A stretch of DNA of 64,000 bases, from the NCBI GenBank assembly GCA_916048095.2, contig OU696575.1, forward strand, positions 5,675,501-5,739,500, given 5' to 3'. This DNA is from Sacculina carcini. Taxonomy: Eukaryota > Arthropoda > Thecostraca > Sacculinidae. The notes below the pieces were generated by a model, which saw only the letters and a list, made by a program, of their open reading frames with translations, was not told where the DNA came from and made no database searches. Shown here in pieces: positions 16,282-33,065 of the stretch. The position numbers were made by a program, and so were the translations under genes. The first letter of the stretch is position 1, and each line of letters starts with the position of its first letter.

Positions 16282-16315
16282 CACACACTCACACACACAC
16301 TCACACACACACACA
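16282..16315. repeat. (AC)n microsatellite, left flank of LINE
   Basis: An interrupted AC tract (with CTC interruptions) that ends at AGTCGCG, where GC-richer sequence begins. The same-strand AC tract at 19877-19892 follows the LINE 3' end. The pair looks like one microsatellite split by the LINE. Confidence 0.9.
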
Positions 16316-19300
16316 GTCGCGTTTTATCCTTAGTCGAAGAAGGTCGTGTTTTGCCCTGGCTCCCGCAATTCCCCAGTGTGTACATTTAAACTTACCCGTG
16401 AGATTCTGTCAGTGTCCGGTCAGGTGTTTACACGCTCGCCCGCGACACCTGTCATAATCGATCATCGCGGCGGCGGCTGAGCGGTGTGCGTGTCATAGGC
16501 GTGTGCGGGCATATTTCCCAGTGCGACAGTGCGTATAGTGTGCCCCTAGTCATAATTCATCATTGCGGCGACAGTTAGACGGTGAGGCGAGTGTGCGTAT
16601 ACATACGTTTGCGTGTTTGTGTTCGTTCGGTTACATCATGTGCCCTAGGCACCATTTCTAGTGATCCACCATCCTTGAATTTTTTTTTCTTCTTTTTTTC
16701 GTAAATTAGGCGTCACCAAATCATGCGTATATAGATTAGGCTTCGTTTTCAACTTTGGATGTGTTCTGCACGTATGCTTCGGTAATGTTATTCTGACACC
16801 GAGTGGAAGAGTCAACGCGACCCACAATGCCCAACCACTGGAGCCCCAAGGCTAGGAAAACTGTCTCGAAACCACCGTCCGACTACACATGCAGGGTATG
16901 CGGCGACACCGCTCGCATAGGACTGAACTACGGCGTTCGGTCCTGTCCCTCCTGCCGCGAGTTTTTCCGACGTTTTCAGTTAAAAGACCCGGGCACCTGT
17001 AAGATGAGCGGCGAATGCCACATCGACAGAACCACACGCGCCGACTGTCCACCGTGCCGGTTGACCAAGTGCCACGCCGAGGGCATGACTCCGCAGAGGC
17101 CGCCAGGTAACACGGATGACAACTCTCGAACACCCGGCGTGTCAACTTGCCAAGTCTGCGACACGGCTAATGCTAGGAAGAGAACCATCTGCTGTTCCAG
17201 CTGCAGCGCCACGGCTCATCTCACCTGCGTAGGGCTGTCGCGTGCTCAGGCCAGCGAACGTCCTATTTGTCACTGTCAAACGTGCATCAATACTGAGCTG
17301 CAGCATGACGCCGTGGTTCAACCTGTTGTCGACGAGACGGCACCGGATGACCTGGCAGAGGCCCTAGCCCAGCTAAGAAAGCGCTCACGCGTTGCTCAGC
17401 ACAGAGCTCGCAGACACAGGCACCGAGCCGCCACAGAACTGGCAGAGCTCATCACTGCTGCAGTCGATCAGCGTACAGCTCTGTCCTGGTGGCTTATGCT
17501 GTCCTATGCATACACCGGTTTCAGTGCTGCCAAAAACGGCATCAAACAGGACGAGCATCAATCAAACAACAAGCCGAACCAGAGCGACGACTCCGGCTTC
17601 AATAATGCCTATGTAGCTCGTCGCATTCGGGCAAAATGTGCTGACGGTGATGTCAGAGGAGCCCTGCGTCTAATCACAACGCCGGACACAGTAGCTCCTC
17701 TCAACGCTGAGTCGTTAATGGAACTCCACAACAAGCACCCACCAGCACCGCCCGATGAAGACCTGGACGCCATAGTGTACAAGCACCAGATGCCTCTTTC
17801 ACCCACTGAAGACGATGTCGCCGCCACCATCCAGTCGATGTCCCCGGGCTCATCAGCCGGTCTTGATGGAGTGAGACCGCTCCACTTGCGTCAGTTGACG
17901 TCTAAAAAAACTGCCGAGGCCGGTCGTCAGCTGCTGACCGCCTTGATCGCTCTCTGACGTTGCGCTGTGGAAGGTGGCATACCAGACCAAGCCAGGAATG
18001 CGTTTTATGGATCGTCTCTGATTGCTATCAGGAAAAAGAGCGGAGGGATGCGCCCAATCGCAATCGGCAGCTCCTATCGCCGCCTAGCCTGCAAACTTGT
18101 TGGGGGCCGCCTCCTAACGGCAGTCGCGGGCGAGTTACGACCCACTCAGTTAGGAGTCGGCACACCACTGGGGTGCGAGGCCACCGTGCATGCAGTTCGC
18201 GAATATGTCTCGGCGGCCGACCACGGCGTGCTGATGAAGGTCGACCTAAGGAATGCCTTCGATTCGGTGCACCGACAAGTGGTACTTCAGGAGGCTTCGC
18301 GGCGCTATCCCGCCGCCATGCCCTTGCTTCGTCAAGCTTACGGCAGTCCAACGCCCCTCTTTGTCGCCGATCAGGTCATCTGGTCATGCAGGGCCGTGCA
18401 GCAGGGCGACCCACTCGGGCCAGTGTTATTTGCTTCAGCCATTGCTCCAGTGATCAGACAGCTAGTGATATGAAGCCAAGACAGAGGTTACCTGGCTAGC
18501 AGAAAGCGCGACACCAGCTGTCACCGAATCATTCTTCCCGAACGCTCGGAACACCTCACTCCCCTTACTCACAGTGCTTGGGGCACCACTTTGTCGCGAG
18601 GGAGTGCCAGCGGCCTTAGAGTCAGCAGCAGAGGTGGTCGACCGCATGAAAGAGCGTACAGCTAATATCGGAAGACATACAGCTCTGTTCTTCTTGTCGC
18701 GCTATGCGTCCGTGCCTCGCTGCACCTACTTGATGAGGGTATCACAGACGTATTTGCACAGCGAGCAACTCGAACTGATCGATACCAAGATGCGGGACGC
18801 TATCTGCAGTGTGTGCAATGTCGACCTGACAGATGACGGCTGGTTGCAGGCCACCCTCCCAGTTCGTCTCGGTGGTATCGGAATAAGACGACTGGTGGAC
18901 ATCGCGCTACCGGCCTACATATCCTCTGCGTCTGCGACTCGCAGGCTGGTCAGTCTGATCACCCGTCGCCCCTGCGACGACAGACGAGCACTGCTAGGCG
19001 AAGCACAGAAGATATTTTCCGCCAGGGTTGGGAGCGTATACGACGCTGAAGACTCGTTACCCACACGTCAGCGGCAACTAGATGAGCTAGCCTCTCGCTA
19101 TCGCAGCAACGAACTTCTCAGCCGTGCCAATCAACTGCACCGCGCCCGCCTTCTTGCCGCAGCAGAGCCTCACAGTGCCGCTTGGCTGGGAGCCGTACCG
19201 GTAGAGAGCCTAGGCCTACTACTACCAGACGAGGCAGTGCGCGTCAACATTGCTTTGCGATTGGGAGCGACCGTTTGCATGCCTCATAGGTGCCGGTGCG

Positions 19301-19876
19301 GAGCAATGACAGACAGTCTTGGCCACCACCAGCTGTCCTGCCACCGTGATCCCGGGCGTCTGCCACGTCATGCGGCACTCAACGATGTGATTCGTCGTGC
19401 GTTGGCAGCGGCTGGTGTACCAGCCTTGCTAGAGCCCCGCGGCCTCGACCGCGGCGACGGTAGACGACCCGACGGCATCACCATCTCACCGTTCAGCAAC
19501 GGAAAGTCACTGGTCTGGGACGCCACGTGTACCAACACGTTCGGCGCTACTCAACTCCGCGATTGCGCCACCAGAGCAGGAGCCGCCGCCAGAGCAGCTG
19601 AGAGGCGCAAGCGAGATCGCTATGCCGAGCTGGCGCAGCGTTATCGCTTTGAGACACTGGCGGTGGAGACAAGCGGCGTGATGGGATCATCCCTTCTGCG
19701 GCTACTACAAGAACTGGGTCAACGTATAGCGGAATTGTCCGGAGAGCCTCGGGAGACATGTTGGCTTCGACAGCGAGTCAGCCTTGCGGTAGCCCGCGGC
19801 AACACGGCAGCCTTAACGATGACCTAGCCCACTGTATGTTATACGTTGTGTGTCTGGCCTTTAAATATATTGTTGT
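16316..19876 (+). mobile_element. LINE with restriction-like endonuclease and nuclear-receptor finger
   Basis: A single-ORF non-LTR retrotransposon of the group that uses a C-terminal restriction-like endonuclease (R2/NeSL/CRE-type). Its 5' region contains two ~95-bp tandem copies beginning GTCATAATCGATC (16453) and GTCATAATTCATC (16548), which may be a repeated promoter. Coding spans 16827-19827. The 3' untranslated part is only ~50 bp and ends at GTTGT before (AC)n. The same (AC)n orientation at both borders suggests integration into an AC microsatellite. No separate target duplication can be distinguished within such a repeat. The element is GC-rich compared with its neighbours. Confidence 0.75.
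16827..19827 (+). pseudogene. LINE protein: nuclear-receptor DBD + PHD + RT + REL endonuclease
   Basis: From ATG 16827. Residues ~20-88 form a nuclear-receptor-type two-zinc-finger domain: YTCRVCGD, NYGVRSCPSCREFFRRF (P-box region), then C-x5-C, CPPCRLTKC and GM. Spacing of the eight cysteines fits the family except one extra residue in finger 1. Residues ~110-155 form a PHD-like finger (CQVCDTA, CCSSCSATAHLTC, CHCQTC). The RT follows: SAGLDGVRPLHL, GGMRPIAIGSSYRRL, motif A KVDLRNAFDSVHR and motif B QQGDPLGP. The C-terminus has a knuckle (CRCGAMTDSLGHHQLSC) and a restriction-like nuclease core (RRPDG, LVWDATCTN, AVETSG). Breaks: an in-frame TGA at 17955-17957, and near 18470 an internal deletion plus frame change that removes RT motif C (the YxDD loop). 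This copy cannot retrotranspose itself. Confidence 0.88.
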
Positions 19877-19892
19877 ACACACACACACACAC
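19877..19892. repeat. (AC)n microsatellite, right flank of LINE
   Basis: Eight AC units directly after the LINE 3' end. It has the same strand orientation as the tract at 16282-16315. The region 19893-20106 has no recognisable feature. Confidence 0.9.
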
Positions 19893-26119: not shown

Positions 26120-28421
26120 TTACATGCAATAAATATTACCATTAAACCAGAATTTGCAATTAAGTTCAATTCCTTTGCAGCCGTTCATGATGCAGCTGGA
26201 GTCATTTTCTTGAATGTATGCTGCCTCTGCATATCTTCTAGTAGCATCGTCTAATATTCCGCTGTGTATAACTGTCCACTTTATCGATACTTCCATTTTG
26301 TTATGCTCTTCCATGAAATGCTTTATAATTGGACCTCCCAGCTTATAGTTGGAGTGTTCCAGGATCCTTACACGTACTGGTCGCGAGGTCTCACCAATGT
26401 AGATTTTTCCACATACCGTGCACACTATCTTATAAATGACATTTTTCCTCCAATATAGTTTTCTGTCGGGACTCATGGATGTGGCACAGGTATCACATTG
26501 TGGTGCGCATCTGAAACGCTCTCTTGGTGGAGCGAAAATCCGCTTCAGCGGTCGACCCGGGTCGAACCACACCCGTATTTTCCCCTGGAGACCTGTTCTC
26601 TTGATGAGGGAATAACATTGTCGGCGACTGCTCTCACCCAGATACGGTAGTTTGATAAAATATTTGTCTTCCTTGCTTTCAGCTTGCTTGTCTACTCTGA
26701 TATCTCTAATTGCCTTGTTCTTGCTCCTTTTGATCACATAGTCGGGGTAGCCATTTTGTCTAAATCGGTTCTCAATGGTCTTAATGGAAGTCTGAAGTGT
26801 CGCCGGTGTAGTGGCTCTTCTCGAAGCCCTCACAAATTCCCCATATGCTATTGCACACTTAGCACTTTTTGGACCATTAGACATCCAAGATGTGATTGAG
26901 CCGCTGTGGTGAGGCTTCATGTATACCTCAGATACAAATTGTTCACCGTTGTAGCTGATGTTGCAGTCCAAAAAAGCCATTCTGCCATTCTTCGGCAGCT
27001 CAATAGTAAACTCAATAAAATTTGAGATGGAATTGGCGGTAGCTAGCAACACTGCGGTGTCAATGTCGTCATACCAAGCTACAAATATATCATCGATGTA
27101 TCTCTTGTATTTGAGTGGCCGATGAAATGCCGTTTGAAATTGCTGGTCCAAATAGTCGGCGAATATGATGGCCAGTTGAAGAGCCAGTGGATTTCCCATT
27201 GATAATCCTTCGATCTGTTTATAGAGTTTAGCTCCCTGAATGACGACATCATTTGATATGGCCATATTGACCAAATCAAAAATATCCTCAACCGCCATCT
27301 CATGAAACATATCGTCTTTGGACTTGTTGTTAATTAAAAAGTCACGTAACACTTCATCTAGGCCCTTATTGTTGTCATCTGAGCAGCGTGGAATAGTGCC
27401 ATATAAGTTTTTTATGTCAAGAGAGGCAAACCCCTTTACTCCGCATTGTGGTAGTGTTTTAAGCCACTGCAAAAACTCATCTGAACTTCTAAGATGTGCG
27501 GGTACATTATTGATAAGTCCATCCAATTTCTTCGAAAGGCATTTTGCTAGTTTTGTGGCTGGCCCGTCGACTGCAGCAACTATGGGTCGCCCTTTCAGTT
27601 CTCCGACCTTGTGGTCTTTGGGTAAGGTGTAAGCCGAACTAGGCATTGGGAAGCTACATTTGAGCTTACAGAGGCAGCTCTGAACAGTTTTGTTCCTTCT
27701 ATATTTTTGTATAACGTAGTCGAGGTTTTTGTTGAATTGGGCTTGCCTGGTGGATGGGAGCACAGATTTAATTTCCTGAAAATTTCCTCCCTCGACTGTT
27801 GATTCAGTCAGCATCCTCTCATAGTGCTCAGTGCTGAGTGCCATTAGACGTCCGGTCTTGTCTGTAGGAGTGATGACGGTATTGCTTTGCATCTTAATCT
27901 CTTTGATCTTATGCAACTCATCTGGCATTTTATTCGGTAAAAGTTTATGACTGTTTTTCAAAATCTTCATCGCCCCACCAGCAAATTCCTGTATTGCTTC
28001 ATTTGGGATGCCATCTTTTTCCATTTTTGCGATGCTTTTTTGAATTGTGGCTCCACACTCTTTCGTAATTCGTCGACAATCTCTCCTGCAATATTGTTGA
28101 GGCACGTATGATGGACCATTGTTTAGCAAATTTCTGTGAGGAAGACCATCGTTAGACTTGTCTACAAACATTATCCTGTCGCTTTGTTCCGTCGCATCAA
28201 AACCGCACTTTGTCACCTTCTTCTCGGCCGTCGACAGCAAGTTATTAAACTTTTCATTTTCTTTGTGTGCAGCTCATTACTCCATTCCACCATCCTGTTA
28301 TGTTCATTTTGTTCAAGTGGAAATACTGCACAATTAAGGCTTTGCAGGCGTTCATATTCACAATCCAGTGTGAGCTGTAGCCATTCCTTAGCTTGTTTAG
28401 CCACTAATCTTTCGGCTTTTT
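26120..28421 (-). CDS. Penelope-like RT with GIY-YIG endonuclease
   Basis: One uninterrupted 706-codon frame (28240-26120) with a further upstream segment in another frame (to 28421) joined across a 1-nt shift near 28215-28250. The RT domain shows RPIVAAVDGPATKLA, motif A ASLDIKNLYGTIP, motif B GLSMGNPLALQLA, motif C KRYIDDIFVAWY, and LPKNGRMAFLDCNI. The C-terminal GIY-YIG nuclease starts VIYKIVCTVCGKIYIGE and has SRPVRVRILEH and a final Glu-containing helix (AEAAYIQEN). The protein makes cDNA and nicks the target. The true start codon is lost to the cassette; the first ATG within the long frame is near residue 24. Apart from the lost 5' end and the upstream shift the catalytic parts look intact. 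Confidence 0.9.
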
Positions 28422-31400: not shown

Positions 31401-32141
31401 GTTGGTCGGCCTGGTGGCCGGCACGGGACGCTGCTGAGACGACTTGCCCGTACGACGGAGGGGTGCATCGACCTTCGTTGGGAATACCACGGTGCCGGCC
31501 TGGTACGTCGTTGCCGGGTCGCATGTCCTCGTCAACATGTCGGACATCGTAGAATGTGACCATACGTCACCCGCTAGCTTCATGGCGGCGAACCTGCGCT
31601 GGGTAGGGGCAGCCCCCGAGCCCGTGGAAACGGGATCCCCCGCGCTGCTGCGGCCTCGTACCGAAGGTTCGTCGTTTGCTCACGGGTTTGACCTTACGAC
31701 ACGATCAACGTCGGCGGTGTTTACTGCTGTGCAACTAGCTGCTGCTCGCAGGTTATCCGCCCAGGGTCGCACGAGGAGCGCCGAGCTCTCTATGGTCTCG
31801 GCGCAAGTCCTGGATCCGGGCTGGGGATCGCCTGGGTCACCAGAGTGGGCTAGCAGCTACGTATCGGCCCTAGATGGCGACGCAAGACTATCTGCTGTGC
31901 TACGCAACGCCGTGGGAGACATAGGCTCATTGCTCAACCCGGCCAAGGAGTGGTTCCAGTCGTGCATCGGCTGGGTGATCTTCGTGGTCGGGTGTTTCAC
32001 TGTGTTGTGTTTTTTCGGACAAGTCATCATGGTGCTGGCCCGTGCTCGCAGTTTCGTGCAAGCAGGGGCCGGCATTTGGCACGTTTTCACGAACGTGTTT
32101 TTGTTCAAACCGACAGTATACCCTTCGGTGACCCTGGGCGG
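28422..32141 (+). mobile_element. 3.7-kb inverted-repeat cassette with glycoprotein-like frame
   Basis: Bounded by 28-bp inverted repeats with one mismatch: CCGCCCAGGGTCACCGA.. at 28422-28449 and its complement at 32114-32141. It lies between two unrelated, oppositely oriented Penelope-like elements, and both PLE frames end exactly at the repeats. Only TT could be a shared flank, so no firm target duplication is seen. The interior is clearly GC-richer than both flanks and encodes an unknown 255-aa ORF and a long glycoprotein-like frame. I recognise no transposase, polymerase or integrase. It may be a captured virus-derived env cassette moved in trans, or the two ends may have formed by rearrangement. 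Confidence 0.7.
28461..29228 (+). CDS. Unknown 255-aa protein of the cassette
   Basis: The ATG lies 11 bases inside the left inverted repeat, and the same frame is open upstream through the repeat, so the protein may originally have been longer. I recognise no domain. It has conserved-looking Trp/Cys/Pro spacing, a WHFRPLKSMPRERWRR basic patch and an acidic C-terminus (ETPDFDSEEW). Its last 119 bases overlap the next frame. A 1-nt shift near 29210 would fuse it to that frame, so it could be the N-terminal part of the same protein, or a separate upstream product such as a matrix- or nucleoprotein-like polypeptide. Codon use is GC-rich like the rest of the cassette. Confidence 0.5.
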   Translation: MWAQVVNISAITCDLGESVRWLGKNTGFCATNAINKSDELEALVSLREWCRMHSPMRQVTFGNTTYSVPSSGHPNVPGPFLSLSHGLADKLPILDACPVVPPAHWAFTDIPDVCTVRPLILGAGDLNKKYPSAPQWHFRPLKSMPRERWRRIAAFIWDDYTPLTTTITPWRVLNGRVAPNSEPAPVETEDDMAKRAVVAESLLRGVSHVLECAYEPVAAETPDFDSEEWTSRGADWSPPADHTHGVEEDTSGTGR

Positions 32142-32175
32142 TTCCATAATCGCTTGCCATTTCTCGATGTGCTAG
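29110..32175 (+). pseudogene. Virus glycoprotein-like long frame with two stops
   Basis: A single reading frame of about 1020 codons broken by TAA at 31102-31104 and TGA at 31435-31437. The segments on both sides are in the same frame. The N-terminal ~85 residues are basic and proline-rich. The middle (near 30220-30560) has an FDCSDP motif, regularly spaced cysteines and a CGMHSHATVLGVP motif. This is the arrangement I associate with glycoproteins of jingchuvirus-type negative-strand RNA viruses and the Env proteins captured from them by retroelements. N-glycosylation-type NTT sites and a single strong hydrophobic segment (WVIFVVGCFTVLCFFG, near 31965-32020) close to the C-terminus fit a type I membrane protein. 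The frame ends just past the right inverted repeat. Ancestry is an inference from motif pattern; no search was run. Confidence 0.55.
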
Positions 32176-33065
32176 TTCAATTGAACGGTGAACGAATAGA
32201 CACCAGTGTCCACACCAAGCCCACCAACGCAGGCCTGTGCATGAGCGGCCGAAGCGAATGCCCAAACAGATACCGGCGAGCAACGATTTCTGCATACGTG
32301 CGACGTGCTCTGACACACTGTTCAACGTGGCAATCAACTCACAGTGAACTGGAGCGAGTTACGCAAGTCTTGGTAAATAATGGTTACTGCAACACAGAAA
32401 TATCAGACGTCATCGCAGAAACGCTGAATAATTTTTTCCAAAAACATACATCGAATCGCCCAGACACAAAGAGCATTGAGCTCTATTACAAAAACGTATT
32501 TTCGACCTCGCACAGAGTGGATGAACGTGTGATGAAAAACATTGTCGAGAATAACGTGAAGGCCACTGAAGAAAACACTGTAGTGAAATTGATTATTTAT
32601 TACAAAACGCAGAAGACGGCAAACTTGGTTCTCCGCAACAAACCAGAATGTGACAAGCCTGCGCAGCTGCAGCAGCATCACGTCGTTTACCAATTCACAT
32701 GCAATGTTGAGGGGTGTGGACCTCAAATTTATATTGGTATGACGACGACGACGTTGTCGCGGCGGCTGACTTGCCACCTGAGCAACGGCGCCATCAAAAA
32801 ACATTTCAGCTCGGCTCACAAACAAAAACTGAAACGTGATGATATTGTTCGTGGTACTGAGGTGTTGGCGTATGAAAACGACGCACGTCAACTGCGCCTG
32901 CTTGAAGCAGTGTACATCACCCAGCTGAGGCCATCAATAAACATTCAGCAGGAAGAAAATGGTGTACTTCCAACTCAGCGAGCCCCCCCATTTGAGCGAA
33001 ACTCGACTCGCCCTTGCGACAGTCAGACGCCCGCACATCCGCCTGATGATAACACCTTGGCGTGA
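32142..33065 (+). pseudogene. PLE2 RT C-terminus and GIY-YIG endonuclease
   Basis: The open frame contains the last conserved RT block (NRLPFLDVLVQLNGE), an alpha-helical linker with no break, and the GIY-YIG module: VVYQFTCNVEGCGPQIYIGMT, then LSRRLTCHL, GAIKKHF, and a late acidic motif (LRLLEAVYITQLRPSIN). The upstream ~1.5 kb of RT is absent. The frame itself is undamaged to the stop near 33063, so the truncation came with the cassette border. It differs strongly from PLE1 in sequence and so represents another family. Confidence 0.85.

Follow-up and report, generated by a model that had tools for sequence, protein, structure and literature searches.

R2 retrotransposons are among the described systems closest to the family presented here and, in the partial account available to us, they resemble it in having a single open reading frame (ORF) with DNA-binding fingers at the N-terminus and an endonuclease at the C-terminus. 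In the available part of PMC12203849, the R2 target is bound by an N-terminal zinc finger (ZF)/Myb module, and a different target in R2 is attributed to a change in the N-terminal domain. Other LINEs with a restriction-like endonuclease (RLE) insert in microsatellites; the available part of PMC4640811 reports this for the (TG)n-specific Togen LINEs of fish and for some HERO families, and also describes the NeSL/Utopia RLE LINEs, some of which have added domains (Ulp1-like protease, RNase H). The family found in a 64-kb window of the Sacculina carcini genome (the window being the whole stretch of DNA that was analysed) belongs to a known kind of element, an RLE LINE in microsatellites, carrying a new N-terminal module. 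Whereas R2, as far as its partial account goes, has a ZF/Myb module, this family has a nuclear-receptor (NR)-type C4 DNA-binding domain (DBD) followed by a PHD finger, and it inserts in (AC)n, whereas R2 inserts in 28S rDNA. Togen occupies the same dinucleotide repeat, but no NR-type domain is mentioned for Togen or HERO in that part of PMC4640811, the comparison with both being by description only; NeSL/Utopia elements, described in the same portion of text, have other domains and other targets. Among open-licence papers, as far as their titles and the openings of their abstracts show, no LINE with an NR domain was found, a scope that takes in neither Repbase nor the majority of subscription journals. 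This agrees with the initial annotation of the locus, which knew of no described family with such a domain, and a Repbase entry for such a LINE may have gone unnoticed.

The window holds one broken copy of this non-LTR, RLE-type LINE at about 16316..19876 on the plus strand (as for all features of the copy), delimited by its similarity to copies L031-L033 and by AC repeats on both sides. The (CA)n/(AC)n microsatellite that holds the insertion was identified by TRF on a window slice and by reading the sequence at the 5' flank (16282..16315), and reappears in the same orientation as (AC)8 at the 3' flank (19877..19892). A 5' untranslated region (16316..16826), mostly common to L031 and L032 by copy comparison, precedes the N-terminal part of the ORF (16827..17954, 376 codons), which starts at ATG 16827, the first ATG of a frame open from ten codons upstream, and ends at TGA 17955-17957. 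Positions 16827-17306 encode MPNHWSPKARKTVSKPPSDYTCRVCGD...CPSCREFFRR...CKMSGEC...CPPCRLTKCHAEGM, then a PHD-like finger. The Pfam profile zf-C4 matches residues 21-88 (16887..17090) with an E-value of 2.2e-17 and 63.7 bits (cut-off 21.1), the DBD covering profile positions 2-69 of 70. The top PDB sequence match of the domain is the androgen-receptor DBD (E 5.8e-14), and other solved relatives include ROR-gamma, ancestral steroid receptors and RXR. The initial annotation had placed an NR DBD with an eight-cysteine pattern at the N-terminus of a LINE ORF; the domain is indeed there, and the count is nine with the cysteine of CRLxKC included. Across all six frames of the window (64 kb), a narrow nine-cysteine regular expression matched the DBD locus and nothing else. 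The domain shares with the nuclear-receptor superfamily the nine cysteines, the FFxR helix and CRLxKCxxxGM. Unlike the receptors, it is fused to a reverse transcriptase (RT) and an endonuclease, with no ligand-binding domain detected (no Pfam match to PF00104 in six intact members or in the three window pieces).

The PHD finger, which had likewise been proposed, lies at residues 108-153 (17148..17285). It stays under the Pfam cut-off of 24 in the window copy (E 0.00067, 20.1 bits) and exceeds it in the relatives L037 (27.8 bits) and P0001 (26.4 bits); its top Foldseek matches, weak ones, are PHD structures (E 0.013). AlphaFold models of the DBD were poor (mean pLDDT 49 for the DBD alone, from a three-sequence alignment). 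Foldseek ranked PHD fingers first, placed GR and FXR/RXR DBDs at E-values of 0.20-0.36 and gave no match below 0.001 among the best 50 of 273; given the low confidence of these models, no weight was placed on them. Downstream of the TGA, an RT fragment (RVT_1, 18027..18464; Pfam E 3.9e-11) continues in the frame of the DBD. Near 18462-18470, about 115 bp of copy L031 are missing from the window copy and the frame shifts. The C-terminal part (18469..19827, ending in TAG) stands in another frame and comprises the linker, a CCHC knuckle and the putative RLE motif (RRPDG...WDATC), located by invariant columns, this third ORF piece having no Pfam match. Because of the TGA between DBD and RT and of the frame loss, the window copy is broken. 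Thus, the claim that DBD, PHD finger and RT share one frame stands here for the common frame of DBD and RT, but not for an uninterrupted one.

Elsewhere in the window, an open frame at 29092-31101 matches the Pfam family Monjiviricetes_fusion (E 2.7e-14), a fusion glycoprotein of the type found in negative-strand RNA viruses, and 31438-32172 matches it below cut-off (0.0013). These frames are adjoined by GIY-YIG frames on the minus strand (26120-28273, with a weak RVT_1 match) and the plus strand (31854-33062), which look Penelope-like.

The sequence assigns the element to the R2-type LINEs, with a probable RLE. In the PDB, the family profile is matched best by R2 proteins (9nl3, E 3.7e-18, in the RT region). 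Invariant C-terminal residues in the six-subfamily alignment are, in A1 numbering, C854, C856, H865, H866 and C870, and R912-P-D-G...W929-D930; from the motif, we take this to be a PD-(D/E)xK-like endonuclease. No APE domain was matched by Pfam in the six intact members.

The window copy belongs to a large family. In the 264-Mb genome (43 contigs, the window included), at least 150 stretches match the DBD and PHD region (best 150 of 249 candidates scored), a few of them being two pieces of one copy. The whole span between the first cysteine of the DBD and the last of the PHD finger (residue 153) is covered by 127 of the 150, residue 140 or further is reached by 131, and 45 belong to open frames of 1000-1140 codons. 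Of 20 copies taken as 9-kb pieces, 11 have uninterrupted frames of 1028-1140 codons; the 1140 codons of L048 count a stop-free upstream repeat, and four more frames enter masked stretches. Six intact subfamily ORFs, 52-65% identical to the first, have in common the nine DBD cysteines, the PHD ligands, the RT, the CCHC knuckle and RRPDG...WD; zf-C4, PHD and RVT_1 are each matched by Pfam in all six, and the helix residues F37 and R40 are invariant. In these subfamilies the ORF runs continuously from the DBD to the RLE, which bears out the in-frame fusion to an RLE-type LINE protein and the PHD finger first proposed from the window copy. An insertion boundary between DBD and RT was seen in none of the six and was rejected.

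Among 44 loci, which represent 43 copies (L008 and L009 being one), the nine-cysteine pattern is unbroken in 34, 29 with the narrow pattern and 5 of the 15 misses on re-test; the ten others include the split L008/L009, the 5'-short L006, L021, L029 and L050, the masked L047, and also L010, L011 and L022. Viewed from the RT, 94 of 138 matches (138 of 2401 candidates scored) have DBD and PHD 100-2500 nt upstream on the same strand, and three more gain an upstream DBD from two additional DBD lists (150 of 194 and 150 of 213 candidates scored). The other 41 have no DBD in these lists, which were made from the best-scored candidates. One of the 41 was read, C3:838299, and it is a 5'-truncated copy whose long frame enters a stop-free AC repeat. 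No intact copy with a different N-terminus was seen among the copies read, and those copies without a listed DBD that were checked were 5'-truncated or had the DBD in another frame; intact copies lacking the domain, which would have told against the fusion, were not encountered among those read. A genome scan with zf-C4 gave at least 147 matches (150 of 213 candidates scored), 107 of them at LINE DBD and PHD places; the other 40 include the six top-ranking rows of the whole scan, which are host receptor exons, and the remainder is an unsorted set of split host exons and LINE copies. Three DBD matches (G000 C8:7416117, 7422656 and 7429195) are spaced by exactly 6539 bp, which looks like a tandem duplication containing a decayed LINE copy.

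Substitution patterns in the DBD (NG86, 69 codons) show purifying selection, which the initial annotation had proposed to check in the paralogous copies. The dN/dS of close pairs is 0.09 (L041/L043), 0.14 (L041/L042), 0.25 (L042/L043) and 0.06 (L037/L038), and 0.63 for L049/L050, from very few changes. In the subfamily of the window copy, it is 0.28 when pooled over six pairs of four copies, L004, a near copy of L003, being left out, and 0.29-0.43 against the diverged copy L007. Few changes also underlie the values for the PHD finger (1.28) and the linker (4.16) in this subfamily, and for the RT of the young pair L037/L038 (1.02). Synonymous sites are saturated or nearly so in eight deep pairs; dN is 0.40-0.60 in the DBD versus 0.20-0.41 in the RT, and the DBD therefore drifts faster than the RT around its fixed cysteines.

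Relatives were also found in public data. At least 46 public proteins match the family profile (7992 candidates scored), and two of them, P0001 and P0008, have zf-C4. A second search with P0008 as query gave 132 matches; among the 120 of these listed, the nearest named relatives are from a crab and a barnacle, and P0048 ("Retrotransposable element SLACS protein [Chionoecetes opilio]") shows 73% identity over 62% of the query, in a record without the N-terminus where the DBD would stand. The records P0002, P0034 and P0047 start at or beside the position where the DBD ends, which is consistent with cut or mis-started records. A region search with the DBD of P0008 alone returned only P0008 itself. 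In a tree of 55 RT-bearing rows, all 11 known DBD carriers fall in one 20-row clade (SH-aLRT 100). The other nine rows of this clade have no DBD in the protein record, so the gain of the DBD may be placed anywhere on or near the stem, and loss is possible.

Six rows with a ubiquitin hydrolase domain form part of a separate 19-row branch (SH-aLRT 89) outside the DBD clade. Such relatives (P0012, P0013, P0025, P0065) belong to the same RT/RLE lineage, and P0012 also has a PHD match (34.3 bits), as does P0013, though a weak one; unlike the window family, they end in a UCH domain and give no match to zf-C4. Their presence suggests that the lineage is prone to host-domain uptake. In sister LINEs (P0011, P0012, P0013, P0025, P0065 and others; P0025 and P0065 are from the barnacle Amphibalanus amphitrite), the ubiquitin carboxyl-terminal hydrolase domain lies C-terminal of the endonuclease, and records are named after ubiquitin hydrolases 38 and 2. 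By eye there seem to be two or more kinds among these hydrolases, which points to repeated capture. A 2A-like motif, D(V/I)ExNPGP, occurs in 10 of 135 proteins of the lineage (P0014, P0019, P0021, P0040, P0042, P0053, P0058, P0060, P0066 and P0110) and is absent from both P0001 and P0008.

The origin of the DBD was approached through a phylogeny against host receptors, the comparison proposed at the outset. Seven host receptor DBD exons were read from the Sacculina carcini genome; six we take to be HR3 (twice), FTZ-F1, HR78, HR39 and HR96-like, and one was identified as NR4A, a set of types that points to an arthropod. Host exons split by introns were left out of the tree. Nine LINE DBDs and the seven host DBDs part at one branch (UFBoot 95, SH-aLRT 96); the LINE DBD therefore does not derive recently from any of these seven genes. 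The closest of the seven to the window copy is FTZ-F1-like, at 46% (BLASTP), and other subfamilies are closest to another. Forks inside the DBD tree are mostly weakly settled, and no one donor receptor is singled out. The receptor spacing is kept in the window subfamily and in P0008, and the other rows are one residue shorter before the seventh cysteine. Since the PHD finger occurs on both sides of the RT tree, in the DBD clade and in the hydrolase-bearing relatives, one capture of the DBD by a PHD-bearing ancestor is the simplest reading. The idea that the fusion arose by chance or as an assembly artefact, a host receptor exon having landed in a single LINE copy, has next to no probability in our view: no point was found in its support, and it is contradicted by the at least 150 matching genome stretches, on which a one-copy artefact was rejected, by the two DBD-bearing relatives in public data and by the separation of the DBD group from host receptors.

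The copies occupy (AC)n microsatellites in one orientation. A sense (AC)4 or longer stands within 170 nt past the C-terminus in 37 of 43 sequences, and an antisense one in 3 of 43; in the control, such repeats were present in 89 of 2550 overlapping 170-nt window stretches, both strands counted. The 43 are what remains of 47 sequences minus four without a C-terminal match (L044, L061, L070, L074). The six without a counted 3' repeat are L039 and L073 (one locus, AC-rich and degenerate), L048 ((AAACAC)n), L057 (degenerate, AC-rich), L045 (masked) and L047, whose repeat at 168 nt stands behind unrelated sequence and was left out of the count. The C-terminal match of L042 is part of a second copy just upstream. 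On the 5' side, a sense repeat is found within 700 nt upstream in 31 of 41 copies and an antisense one in 7 of 41 (control: 21 of 182 window stretches), this sample leaving out the duplicates L008, L031-L035 and L040, and the masked L046 and L047. An AC4 run is also present in 23 of 74 of the 700-nt segments at the outer edges of the 9-kb loci, which are AC-rich neighbourhoods. The choice of AC is strong, though the background near the copies is AC-rich too. The junctions lie in the AC repeat and not in 28S rDNA, the insertion site by which the R2 family is recognised. A signature of target-primed reverse transcription (TPRT) is present: of the 37 copies with a 3' repeat within 170 nt, 29 have a run of at least six A ahead of it. 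Copies that are 5'-short, such as L033, L038 and C3:838299, abut the AC repeat (variable 5' truncation), and full-length copies have their AC junction 5' of a 5' untranslated region.

In L045 (1-455 and 801-2005) and in the upstream part of L042, copies stand head to tail in one AC array, so one array can receive insertions repeatedly. Some 14-mers in two copies, for example ACAACTCGGTGAGT / TGTACTCACCGAGT, were observed in or near element flanks (L042 5155-5184, L049 2054-2084, L037 7258-7287).

These sites bear on the suggestion, made with the first description of the locus, that the domain could direct the element to hormone-response-element-like targets. A hormone-controlled element with ligand-dependent targeting to such elements would account for the likeness to receptor DBDs; as no ligand-binding domain was found in the six members scanned, hormone control is not supported, and the insertions are in AC repeats, so that we regard this explanation as highly improbable.

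Taken together, it is rather probable that a single capture brought an NR DBD into an R2-type LINE that inserts by TPRT in (AC)n/(GT)n, and that the domain was retained there as the N-terminal DNA-binding module. The single ORF encodes, in order, the NR-type DBD, the PHD finger, the RT, the CCHC knuckle and the restriction-like endonuclease. The DBD would have been acquired most simply by an ancestor that already had the PHD finger, and selection would have kept it at the N-terminal place that the ZF/Myb module holds in R2; by position and kind, the NR-type DBD may be the counterpart of that module, as far as the partial account of R2 goes. We infer that the DBD binds DNA, and its target. Aided by a PHD finger that would bind chromatin, it would most likely hold the ribonucleoprotein (RNP) on the double-stranded target beside the cut; the RLE would then nick the (GT)n strand, and the nicked (GT)n 3' end would prime cDNA synthesis on the A-rich or AC-like tail of the RNA. 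From the insertion orientation, the (GT)n strand would be the one nicked for priming, and A-rich tails with scattered C would seem to fit priming in the repeat. The order of these steps is likewise the one we infer.

Whether the DBD itself chooses the repeat is a narrower question. The domain may bind in a sequence-specific manner, as first suggested, and we tentatively propose, with less than even confidence, that the (AC)n/(GT)n duplex is recognised directly by the DBD, whose recognition helix is altered, and that DBD and PHD finger together determine the site of integration. The recognition-helix residues vary by subfamily (CPSCRE, CRACNI, CPACKI, CPACRQ, CRACLV, CRACQA, CRACNV) although every subfamily is located in AC-rich repeats, and the repeat may therefore be chosen by something other than the DBD. 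The AC repeat could instead be chosen by the RLE, the linker and the RT, as in other microsatellite-specific RLE LINEs that lack an NR domain, with the DBD adding general DNA or chromatin affinity only, a possibility that deserves serious attention but falls short of being probable. This would explain why the target is constant under a varying helix, and Togen, (TG)n-specific, has no NR domain mentioned in the available part of PMC4640811; it sits less easily with the invariance of nine cysteines, F37 and R40 in six subfamilies and with the low dN/dS of the DBD. NR DBDs are transcription-factor domains, and the DBD is the first domain of the ORF product, both of which would suit a role on the element's own nucleic acids, as a transcription factor acting on the 5' region or, within the RNP, in binding RNA. 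We consider this role unlikely, since the N-terminal position in R2 serves target DNA binding in the available part of PMC12203849.

The reading that we favour, a captured DBD serving as the N-terminal DNA-binding module, is of interest for both nuclear receptors and LINEs. Nuclear-receptor DBDs are parts of animal transcription factors, and the R2 ZF/Myb module is under study for gene insertion. Recognition of AC repeats by the DBD, if it takes place, would mean that an NR-type domain works outside transcription factors, as an integration-targeting module, and would make this domain an existing substitute for the R2 ZF/Myb module. The family supplies diverged NR-type DBDs outside transcription, and a DBD taken up and selected across subfamilies is a natural experiment on the gain and change of target specificity in LINEs.
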